This document shows positions 13,594 to 16,412 of a stretch of DNA of 64,000 bases, one piece after another (within the stretch, counting starts at the first letter, position 1; every line of letters starts with the position of its first letter). Made by a program: the position numbers and the translations under genes. The notes under the pieces are model-generated. The model saw only the letters and a program-made list of their open reading frames with translations. It did no database searches and was not told the DNA's origin. Source of the DNA: Dictyoglomus thermophilum H-6-12 (GTDB lineage: Bacteria; Dictyoglomota; Dictyoglomia; Dictyoglomales; Dictyoglomaceae); contig NC_011297.1 in the NCBI RefSeq assembly GCF_000020965.1, positions 1,192,387-1,256,386 of the forward strand, written 5' to 3'.

Positions 13594-14139
13594 TTATTGA
13601 TTTATTGAAATTTTTTCTTTTTCTTTAGCAATAGCATCTAAAGTCCAGACCAATTTATTAACAGGCCATTTTAAACTCCAAACAAGAGATGACAAAGGTG
13701 CAGATATAGCACCAACAACTTGAGACAGTAAAACTTCTTTTGGTGGCAGTTTTGCTAATTCCTTAACCTCATCAGCAGAGTATACTTCTCCTTCTATTAT
13801 TCCACCTTTAAATTTTAACAATTCATGCTCTTTAGCATAATCTACAAGAGCCTTTAAAACTCCAAAAGGATCACCATAACAGTAGGTTATAGCAGTAGGC
13901 CCCACAAAAAATTTCTCCAAATCCTTATCAGGATAAATTTTACGGATTGCAAGAAGAGCTAAAGTATTCTTTACTACTCGATATTCTGCATTTAAAGGTC
14001 TTATCTTGCCTCTTAACTGGGTCAAATCAGCCACAGATAATCCCTTAAATTCTGTAAAAATCAAGGCATTAGCATTTAACATTTTTTGATACAGTTCTTC
14101 AACCTTCTGTACCTTTTCTGGCTTTGGCAATCTTTTCAC
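13594..14139 (-). CDS. rplJ: 50S ribosomal protein L10
   Basis: Base of the L7/L12 stalk. The 181 residues show the L10 pattern FTEFKGLSVADLTQLRGKIR and EYRVVKNTLALLAIR, with a C-terminal helix for L12 dimers (about 150-181). It lies downstream of an L10-type leader and an intrinsic attenuator that separate it from rplA, so rplJ-rplL expression is probably autoregulated by L10(L12). Confidence 0.96.
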   Translation of the reverse strand: MKRLPKPEKVQKVEELYQKMLNANALIFTEFKGLSVADLTQLRGKIRPLNAEYRVVKNTLALLAIRKIYPDKDLEKFFVGPTAITYCYGDPFGVLKALVDYAKEHELLKFKGGIIEGEVYSADEVKELAKLPPKEVLLSQVVGAISAPLSSLVWSLKWPVNKLVWTLDAIAKEKEKISINQ

Positions 14140-14164
14140 CTCCTTCCTTATCCCTATTATTCAA

Positions 14165-14196
14165 AAATAAGGGAAAGCCTCCTGGCTTTCCCTTAA
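14165..14196 (-). terminator. Attenuator hairpin between rplA and rplJ
   Basis: A 12-bp stem (14184-14195 with 14168-14179, 4-nt loop) is followed on the minus strand by TTATTTTTG. It stands between the L10 leader fold and rplJ, as expected of a conditional or partial terminator controlling entry into rplJL. Its loop contains AGGAGG-like sequence. Confidence 0.7.
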
Positions 14197-14224
14197 GTAA
14201 TTGCTTTTATTTAATTTTCGAAAA

Positions 14225-14275
14225 CCAGTAAGGCCTACGTAGGAAATTTAAGAACCTACGGTCTTCGGCCCTATT
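14225..14275 (-). ncRNA. L10 (rplJ) leader RNA
   Basis: On the minus strand GGCC-GAAGAC-CGTAGG (14270-14254) pairs with CCTACG-TA-GGCC (14242-14231), giving two helices around an internal loop of kink-turn type. The GACCGUAGG...CCUACGUAGGCC pattern matches the L10 leader family known upstream of rplJ in many bacteria, where L10 binding shuts down its own operon. Confidence 0.75.
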
Positions 14276-14304
14276 TATATTAACTTTTTACTTTTCCTTC
14301 TGCC

Positions 14305-15033
14305 TTATGCAGCCTCCTCTTGTTTTATAAGATCTGCAATATTCTTAGTATCTATTGGCACGCTTGGTCCCATACTCGGAGATATATAAATACTCTTGAA
14401 ATATTGCCCTTTAGCTGCAGCAGGCTTTAATCTTAAAAGTGTACCTAAGACAGTCATCAAGTTTTTATATAATGCCTCTTCTGAAAAGGATGCTTTTCCT
14501 ATTGGAACATGTACTATTCCGTATCGATCTGTTCTAAACTCTACTCTTCCAGCCTTATATTCCTTAACAGCTTTAGCAATATCATTAGTAACCGTACCTG
14601 TCTTAGGATTAGGCATTAGTCCCCTTGGACCTAAAATCTTACCTAAACGAGAGGGTATCTTCAAAGTTCCCATTATATCAGGAGTAGCTATTGCCACATC
14701 AAAATCGAGCCAGCCACTTTCAATCTGTTTTACTAAATCCTCTCCACCCACATAATCCGCTCCAGCTTCCCTTGCTTCCTGAGCTTTTTCACCCTCGGCA
14801 AACACTAAAACTTTCTTTTCTTTACCCGTACCATAAGGTAAAACCACCGTACCTCTTACTTGTTGATCAGCATGTCTTGGATCTACCCCAAGCCTAACTG
14901 CTAAATTTATTGTCTCATCAAATTTTGCAGTTGCAAGCTTTTTAACTAAACTTACAGCCTCTTTTGGAGAATACAGTTTTCCTTTCTCAATTAATGAAAG
15001 CAATTGTTGATATCTTTTTCCTCTCTTTGCCAT
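14305..15033 (-). CDS. rplA: 50S ribosomal protein L1
   Basis: Forms the mobile L1 stalk beside the E site; also a translational repressor of its own mRNA. The 242 residues include the KRGKRYQQL start, [28 protein letters not shown], and the signature [14 protein letters not shown] near 140. ATG 15033 is chosen because AGGAGG lies 9 nt upstream; the longer TTG start is only 3 nt from that SD. The intergenic region upstream carries a likely L1-binding site. Confidence 0.96.
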
Positions 15034-15054
15034 GCCCAAATTCCTCCTTAATTA

Positions 15055-15086
15055 AGTGGTATTAACGAGGGGAAGCCTCTCCCACC
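15055..15086 (-). promoter_or_regulatory. Probable L1 autoregulatory site between rplK and rplA
   Basis: The minus-strand mRNA reads GGTGGGAGAGG, a short hairpin, then TTAATACCAC just before the rplA SD. GGUGGGAG and AAUACCAC are also the two strands of helix 76 of 23S rRNA, where L1 binds. GTGG (15085-15082) pairs with CCAC (15059-15056) and GAGG with CCTC closes the inner hairpin. Molecular mimicry of the rRNA target is the known mode of L1 autoregulation. Confidence 0.6.
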
Positions 15087-15092
15087 ATCTCA

Positions 15093-15521
15093 TCAACCCT
15101 CAATTATTTCAATACCCATGCTCCTTGCTGTACCCTCAATCATTCTCATAGCTGCCTCTATATCATTAGCATTTAAATCTTTCATCTTTAGTTCTGCGAT
15201 TTCTCTTATTTTACTCCTTTTTACCTTTCCTACTTTTACCTTATTAGGCTCTCCAGACCCTTTTTCCACTCCTGCAGCTTTCTTTAAAAGATCAGAAGCA
15301 GGGGGAGTCTTAGTCACAAAAGTAAAAGATCTATCCTCATAAATAGTTATCTCAACAGGTATTATCATTCCCTCTTGACCAGCCGTAGCAGCATTATAAG
15401 CTTTACAAAACTCCATAATATTAACCCCATACTGACCTAATGCTGGTCCAACTGGTGGGGCAGGTGTCGCCTTACCTGCAGGCAATTGAAGTTTTACTTT
15501 TCCTACAACTTTTTTAGGCAA
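15093..15521 (-). CDS. rplK: 50S ribosomal protein L11
   Basis: GTPase-centre protein that binds 23S rRNA and is needed for the stringent response. The 142 residues show [26 protein letters not shown] at the N-terminus and the rRNA-binding C-terminal domain with [21 protein letters not shown] and GTARSMGI. The start is TTG 15521 after AGGGAGGG. It lies 17 nt after nusG. Confidence 0.97.
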
Positions 15522-15538
15522 TTATATTCCCTCCCTTT

Positions 15539-16069
15539 CTAATCAGTCTTCTCTACTTGGGTATGATCTATCTCTGTAGGAGTCTCTCTTCCAAAAATAG
15601 ACAATAAAACTTTTACAGTTCCTTTTTCAGGATATACCTCATCTACAAAACCTTCATATCCCATAAATGGACCAGATTTTATGTATACTCTATCACCTTT
15701 TTTAACTTTAAGCTCTGGTCTTATTTCCTTCTGTTCTAAGAATCTCTTTATCCAGTGTTCCTCCTGTGGATTTAAGGTACTTGGCCTACCAGGTGTACCT
15801 ACAAATCCCGTCACCCCTGTAGTATTTCGGATTAATCTTATCACATCCTCATCCTCTACCATCCTTATAAATAAATATCCAGGGAACACTTTTTTAACCT
15901 GTATCCTCTTTTTTCCTCCTTTTACAGTCATCACCTTTTCTTCAGGAACCACTATCTCAAAAACCTTATCCTCCAAGTGATTAAGTTTTACTTGCCTCTC
16001 CAATATAGCCTTAACCTTATGCTCATGCCCTGCAAGAGTATGTACTACAAACCACTTTGGCTCAGCCAC
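15539..16069 (-). CDS. nusG: Transcription antitermination/elongation factor NusG
   Basis: Binds RNA polymerase and couples it to Rho or the ribosome. The 176 residues have the NGN domain (AEPKWFVVHTLAGHE; VFPGYLFIRMVEDEDV; RNTTGVTGFVG) and a C-terminal KOW domain (KKGDRVYIKSGPFMGYEGFVDEV). I choose GTG 16069: GGAGG lies 8 nt before it and the protein then begins like other NusG proteins. ATG 16084 has no SD. It follows secE, a universal pairing. Confidence 0.95.
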   Translation of the reverse strand: MAEPKWFVVHTLAGHEHKVKAILERQVKLNHLEDKVFEIVVPEEKVMTVKGGKKRIQVKKVFPGYLFIRMVEDEDVIRLIRNTTGVTGFVGTPGRPSTLNPQEEHWIKRFLEQKEIRPELKVKKGDRVYIKSGPFMGYEGFVDEVYPEKGTVKVLLSIFGRETPTEIDHTQVEKTD

Positions 16070-16087
16070 TTGAATTACCTCCATTTT

Positions 16088-16335: not shown

Positions 16336-16412
16336 TGGCAGGCCCGGCAGGGCTCGAACCTGCAACCCCCGGATTTGGAGTCCGGTGCTCTCCCTATTAG
16401 AGCTACGGGCCT
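16336..16412 (-). tRNA. tRNA-Trp (anticodon CCA)
   Basis: Cloverleaf on the minus strand with acceptor AGGCCCG/CGGGCCT, discriminator G and encoded CCA. The anticodon loop CTCCAAA gives CCA, and the T arm contains GTTCGAGC. The first bases coincide with the rpmG stop codon. It lies between rpmG and secE, as in several other bacterial lineages. Confidence 0.95.

Follow-up and report, generated by a model that had tools for sequence, protein, structure and literature searches.

Genes and intergenic features at the locus

The stretch of DNA that was analysed (the window, 64 kb) is part of the Dictyoglomus thermophilum genome, a single contig of 1,959,987 bases, and carries on its minus strand, in this order, tuf, an rpmG-like gene, a tRNA gene, secE, nusG, rplK, rplA, rplJ and rplL (Table 1). 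Genes were named by sequence recognition and, for L1, additionally by the match of the protein to the L1 chains of solved structures, which is nearly full-length (best E 6.5e-85). The list of open reading frames opens rplA at an in-frame TTG (15039), as opposed to the ATG used here, and rplK and rplA lie on the same strand with 59 nt between them. The tRNA gene (16339-16412, minus strand; tryptophan anticodon by eye) sits between the rpmG-like gene and secE, an order that is common to the other genus of the family.

Within the rplK-rplA spacer, the minus strand from 15086 to 15056 reads GUGG-GA-GAGG(CUUCC)CCUC-GUUAAUA-CCAC. The minus strand is hence the sense strand of the element, for which the first-pass annotation had named no strand, and the two strings that drew attention to it, GGTGGGAG (15079-15086) and AATACCAC (15056-15063), both fall inside the spacer on this strand. 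Their mutual pairing is limited to GUGG and CCAC, with an optional extra G-U pair between 15086 and 15055, and their remaining bases form part of the internal loop and of the hairpin foot. The rplK stop codon (15093-15095) lies 7 nt 5' of the outer helix.

Table 1. Features of the rplK-rplA region and of the candidate L1 site, with positions in the window
Feature	Position	Strand	Remark
nusG	15539-16084	-	identified by sequence recognition
nusG-rplK gap	15522-15538	-	17 nt; no L1 site seen
rplK, ribosomal protein L11	15093-15521	-	identified by sequence recognition
Outer helix, 5' strand GUGG	15082-15085	-	counterpart of 23S H77
GA, asymmetric internal loop, 5' side	15080-15081	-	E. coli rplK leader also has GA (by eye)
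Inner hairpin GAGG(CUUCC)CCUC	15067-15079	-	counterpart of the foot of H78
GUUAAUA, internal loop, 3' side	15060-15066	-	E. coli rplK leader has GUUAUUA here (by eye)
Outer helix, 3' strand CCAC	15056-15059	-	
rplA Shine-Dalgarno sequence AGGAGG	15043-15048	-	7 nt 3' of the element
rplA, ribosomal protein L1, 242 aa	14305-15033	-	ATG at 15031-15033

Resemblance to 23S rRNA and to known L1 sites

Two strings identical to those of the spacer, GGUGGGAG and AAUACCAC, are found in the L1 stalk (H77-H78) of the 23S rRNA of the same genome, where the distance between them is 42 nt compared to 15 nt in the spacer and where the 3' side of the loop is GCCGGUGGAAUA instead of GUUAAUA. In the E. coli 23S rRNA (rrlB) the strings occupy nucleotides 2120-2127 and 2170-2177, and with H77 spanning 2120-2124/2174-2178, they represent H77 and the junction with H78, not helix 76 as had been proposed from the letters alone. 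That 23S-like strings lie between rplK and rplA is nevertheless correct: the pattern GGTGGGAGN{12,42}AATACCAC has three matches in the whole genome, namely both 23S genes and the rplK-rplA spacer, while a reversed control pattern has none. The narrower pattern GGTGGGAGN{8,20}AATACCAC has a single match in the window and none in any of its 100 dinucleotide shuffles.

The established L1 target of E. coli, the rplK leader, reads GGG-GA-GCCUCUCAGAGGC-GUUAUUA-CCC and, by eye, shares its plan with the Dictyoglomus element. It differs in that it stands before rplK and has a GGG/CCC outer helix, and the rplK-rplA gap of E. coli measures only 3 nt.

According to a 2024 review (PMC10931766), L1 sites resemble the 23S site in both sequence and structure and form an irregular stem-loop with an internal bulge, with L1 acting as a repressor. 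Citing Fu et al. (2013), it describes such sites ahead of rplK for Proteobacteria, ahead of the cistron of L1 for Actinobacteria and Cyanobacteria, and ahead of both genes for, among others, Firmicutes. Both genes are also preceded by a site in Thermus thermophilus and Thermotoga maritima, for which the review refers to Mikhaylina et al. (2021). The Dictyoglomus element resembles the rplA sites of Firmicutes, Actinobacteria and Cyanobacteria (Fu et al., 2013, as cited in PMC10931766), having the same layout just before the rplA Shine-Dalgarno (SD) sequence. T. thermophilus and T. maritima are thermophiles with an rplA site, as is Dictyoglomus, but carry a second site before rplK, of which none was found in Dictyoglomus. 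The kind of element is thus already known, and a position before rplA is both on record (PMC10931766) and frequent. The position on the coding strand before rplA, a layout that can form the irregular stem-loop and the similarity to 23S rRNA, by which a bacterial L1 element is recognised, are all present at this locus.

Among the matches listed by a literature search on ribosomal-protein autoregulation in Dictyoglomus, the genus was named only in a paper on a ribosomal-protein tree, and in the excerpt of PMC7247131 the terms uL1, rplA, rplK and Dictyoglom- do not occur. Rfam returned no family at the element, either for the window with gathering thresholds or for 14100-15700 with E<=5, so that a curated model could help annotation.

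Occurrence of the element in other bacteria

In named genomes at least 596 rplA loci were matched, of which the 80 best-scoring were used. They form a Firmicutes-rich and uneven sample of bacteria that includes one further Dictyoglomus locus (L033), whose L1 is 95% identical to the L1 of our genome. A regular expression combined with a stem criterion was applied to the 75 spacers between rplK and rplA that measure <=300 nt and found the element in 42 (L033 included), with five of the 80 loci left out (L051, L073, L084 and L094 with unreadable spacers, and L106 with a spacer of 814 nt). All 42 sites were among the 54 spacers of >=40 nt, whereas shuffled spacers gave 3 in 5400. In the rplK leader a site was found in 29 of 73 readable loci, and 18 loci had sites at both positions. 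The 100% pairing among the named sites is a result of their selection and is not counted as evidence. Other properties recur in them: an SD sequence starts 0-10 nt 3' of CCAC in 42/42, and the 3' side of the internal loop begins with G in 40 and ends with A in all 42 (one of them Dictyoglomus). In one metagenome-assembled Bacillota genome (L036) the site before rplA, GUGG-GA-GAGGUG(UUGC)CGCCUC-GUUAAUA-CCAC, follows the same plan as in Dictyoglomus. Two details set the genus apart, namely that the four Dictyoglomus genomes have A-U as second pair of the hairpin while G-C is commonest elsewhere (34/45), and that the SD motif AGGAG begins 5-10 nt after CCAC in Dictyoglomus compared to 0-3 nt in 40 of the 42 named sites.

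MAFFT misplaced the outer helix when it aligned sites that differ in length, so these alignments were dropped and a first covariance model (R1) was seeded with seven hand-chosen, gap-free sites with equal part lengths, three of them from Dictyoglomus. In the 79 other rplA loci (L033 excluded) R1 gave 60 hits at E<=0.1, of which four were its own seed rows. Every one of the 60 lay on the coding strand, either <=80 nt before rplA (40 loci) or <=120 nt before rplK (20 loci), with 16 loci having both, and none was found anywhere else in the 79 loci. For 73 of the 80 loci the hits could be tabulated against the gaps between the genes (left out were L033 and, with unreadable spacer or gap, L051, L058, L073, L084, L094 and L100): 22 had a site before rplA only, which, together with the documentation in PMC10931766, makes the intergenic placement that the first-pass annotation had contrasted with the E. 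coli rplK leader a common one and not a departure. No model hit was obtained in 31 of the 73, although the regular expression finds sites in some of these. The model placed an rplA site in 0 of 20 loci with a spacer of <35 nt and in 38 of the 53 with a longer one.

In an alignment that was fitted to the model and therefore leans towards it, the inner hairpin of the 60 sites covaries, with 43 both-side-changed cells compared to 13.0 +- 2.6 in shuffles and a covariation score of 0.205 compared to 0.070. The number of pairs changed on both sides, three, is not above that of shuffles (170 of 500 reach three). GUGG/CCAC is invariant in 60/60 model hits, and because it never varies, the outer helix has no covariation support.

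A second covariance model (R2) was built from the 60 R1 sites, i.e. without Dictyoglomus rows. In our genome, with 150 of 741 first-look candidates scored, the spacer element was its sole match at E<=10 (31.9 bits, E 3.9e-5). With its 30 positions, the model thus picks out the element before rplA just once in a 2 Mb genome, which shows how regular this element is. Both R1 (E<=1) and R2 (E<=5) missed the E. coli rplK leader and the 23S site, we think because of differing outer helix or loop lengths. Among 23 distant rplA loci (L010-L032) R2 reached E<=0.05 at only four sites, which lie before rplA in L011 and L028 and about 500 nt further upstream in L015 and L024, and gave two weaker hits. The element is thus either widespread yet far from universal or has diverged past the model. 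Three of these loci show divergent L1-like sites before rplA by eye (L015, 1450-1482; L017, 1418-1486; L012, 2201-2235), with a GUGGU/ACCAC outer helix or a long hairpin (GGCUGC/GCAGCC) and with weak or no model scores. Given such sites, the counts may understate how widely the element occurs.

Conservation in Dictyoglomus and absence from the other genus of the family

Close relatives were compared in a set consisting of the best 30 of 40 loci with a match among 41 genomes, our own genome included. The element is kept in all four Dictyoglomus genomes of this set, ours being one of them, with a constant GUGG/CCAC outer helix and GA, while the hairpin loops and the flanks vary. One compensatory change occurs in the genus (n=1), the fourth hairpin pair being A-U in one genome (G001) and G-C in the others. 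R2 found the spacer element as its best match in each of the other three (G001, G002, G003), with a second match of E 7.54 in G003.

The set also holds three genomes from another genus of this family, and all three lack the element, both in the spacers and by R2 over the whole genomes. The rplK-rplA spacers of its three loci (L007, L008, L009) are shorter than 25 nt and hold little besides a ribosome-binding site, and inspection by eye from the rpmG-like gene through rplA revealed no convincing L1 site, and none before rplK. The whole-genome R2 searches, in which 150 of 607-686 first-look candidates were scored per genome, gave no match in G005 and G006 and a single one in G004 (E 1.37). This match lies within an apparent sugar-transporter coding sequence (by eye) and was set aside as due to chance. 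The absence is an absence of this form of the element, as E. coli-type variants with a different outer helix would escape R2. The genus retains an L10 leader before rplJ, seen as sub-gathering matches to the Rfam L10_leader in L008 and L009 and by eye in L007.

With respect to conservation and compensatory change, we therefore find the element in 4/4 genomes of its own genus and 0/3 of the other, and covariation of the hairpin in more distant bacteria. Our tentative reading, which we consider possible but not probable, is that in Dictyoglomus the element, with no site at rplK, would directly control L1 only, whereas in the other genus the autoregulation of L1 would have been lost or have moved to an unrecognised form. 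It is the absence from the other genus that calls for further explanation, and if this reading is true, two genera of one family would form a natural pair, with and without, for the worth of L1 feedback.

Predicted folding of the free RNA

The minimum free energy (MFE) structure of the spacer is not the L1 fold but a different one (-13.9 compared to -10.3 kcal/mol at 37 °C), with the L1 fold lying above it by 3.6 kcal/mol at 37 °C and by 0.45 at 73 °C. Of the four genus members, one has the L1 fold as its MFE structure, and three, this genome included, have another. As folding of single sequences does not return the L1 fold, the case for the element rests on comparison. We do not treat the predicted fold of the free RNA as a defining property, since L1 can select the fold.

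Nor does the spacer surpass its shuffles in stability (z 0.43), 135 of 200 of them folding equally well or better, which is what might be expected if a short spacer merely happened to contain two L1-stalk 8-mers. Against such a coincidence stand the 0/100 shuffles with the pattern, the confinement of the string pair to the 23S genes and the spacer genome-wide, the conservation in all four genus genomes and the recurrence at the same place in other bacteria, so that we regard its probability as negligible.

In the MFE structure of this spacer the CCUC arm pairs with the SD sequence of rplA, whose mean pairing probability is 0.59 at 37 °C. This would suit a switch, in which the CCUC arm serves as an anti-SD sequence in the free RNA and L1, by fixing CCUC in the hairpin, frees the SD sequence and so acts as an activator or timing device. 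However, the corresponding SD value falls to 0.35 at 73 °C and is lower in the three other genus members (0.38, 0.30 and 0.13), values above 0.5 are not unusual (11 of the 42 named sites, with a median of 0.38), and PMC10931766 presents L1 as a repressor. We consider a switch of this kind very improbable.

Proposed action on rplA translation

From the comparison of sequences we conclude that the spacer element is most probably a classical L1 autoregulatory element, a reading to which we assign a probability of roughly 0.93 and in which L1 binding, repression and the restriction to rplA are the predicted parts. It is also the best reading of the imitation of the L1 site postulated in the first-pass annotation, with its predicted repression of rplA, and the expectation that the paired strands are conserved in relatives is borne out by the four genus genomes and by the element before rplA in 40 of the 79 other loci. 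The element would imitate the H77-H78 part of the rRNA site of L1. L1 in excess of free 23S rRNA would bind to the helix, the asymmetric GA-GUUAAUA loop and the hairpin, and, when bound 7 nt 5' of the rplA SD sequence, would hide the start region and block the loading of 30S subunits, with less synthesis of L1 as the consequence. As the rplK stop codon is only 7 nt away from the outer helix, the 5' strand of this helix would be overlapped by a ribosome that terminates there, and L1 would thus presumably have two kinds of competitors, ribosomes that have finished rplK and ribosomes that initiate on rplA.

A further question is how far the control would reach. L11 and L1 are required in equal amounts, the two genes are only 59 nt apart on one strand and no separate site is seen before rplK, all of which could be taken to mean that the element acts on the entire rplK-rplA mRNA, through decay or halted through-transcription, and represses L11 as well. 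The element lies 3' of rplK, however, a scan of the spacer gave no terminator-like sequence, and named loci often have a copy of their own at rplK (model hits in 20/79). We regard such operon-wide action as unlikely, albeit less so than a switch, and the earlier suggestion that rplK may be repressed too finds no support here. Because the 17-nt nusG-rplK gap has no site, direct control by the classical L1 element should be of rplA alone, and the originally proposed action of the repressor on its own cistron fits both this gap and the 7 nt to the rplA SD sequence. A textbook feedback loop, the control of ribosomal-protein synthesis via rRNA mimicry, would thereby be extended to Dictyoglomota.

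The L10 leader downstream

Upstream of rplJ, at 14156-14286 on the minus strand, the window also holds an L10 leader (RF00557) with 40.6 bits, below the gathering score of 44. Sub-threshold Rfam matches of 33.6-41.8 bits were obtained in five of six relatives, and in the sixth (L007) a similar sequence can be seen by eye. At its 3' end the leader has a hairpin of 12 pairs that is followed by a U-rich tail (14195-14168, minus strand). Such an end would be in line with transcription attenuation, which the title of PMC4538822 names for rplJL of B. subtilis.
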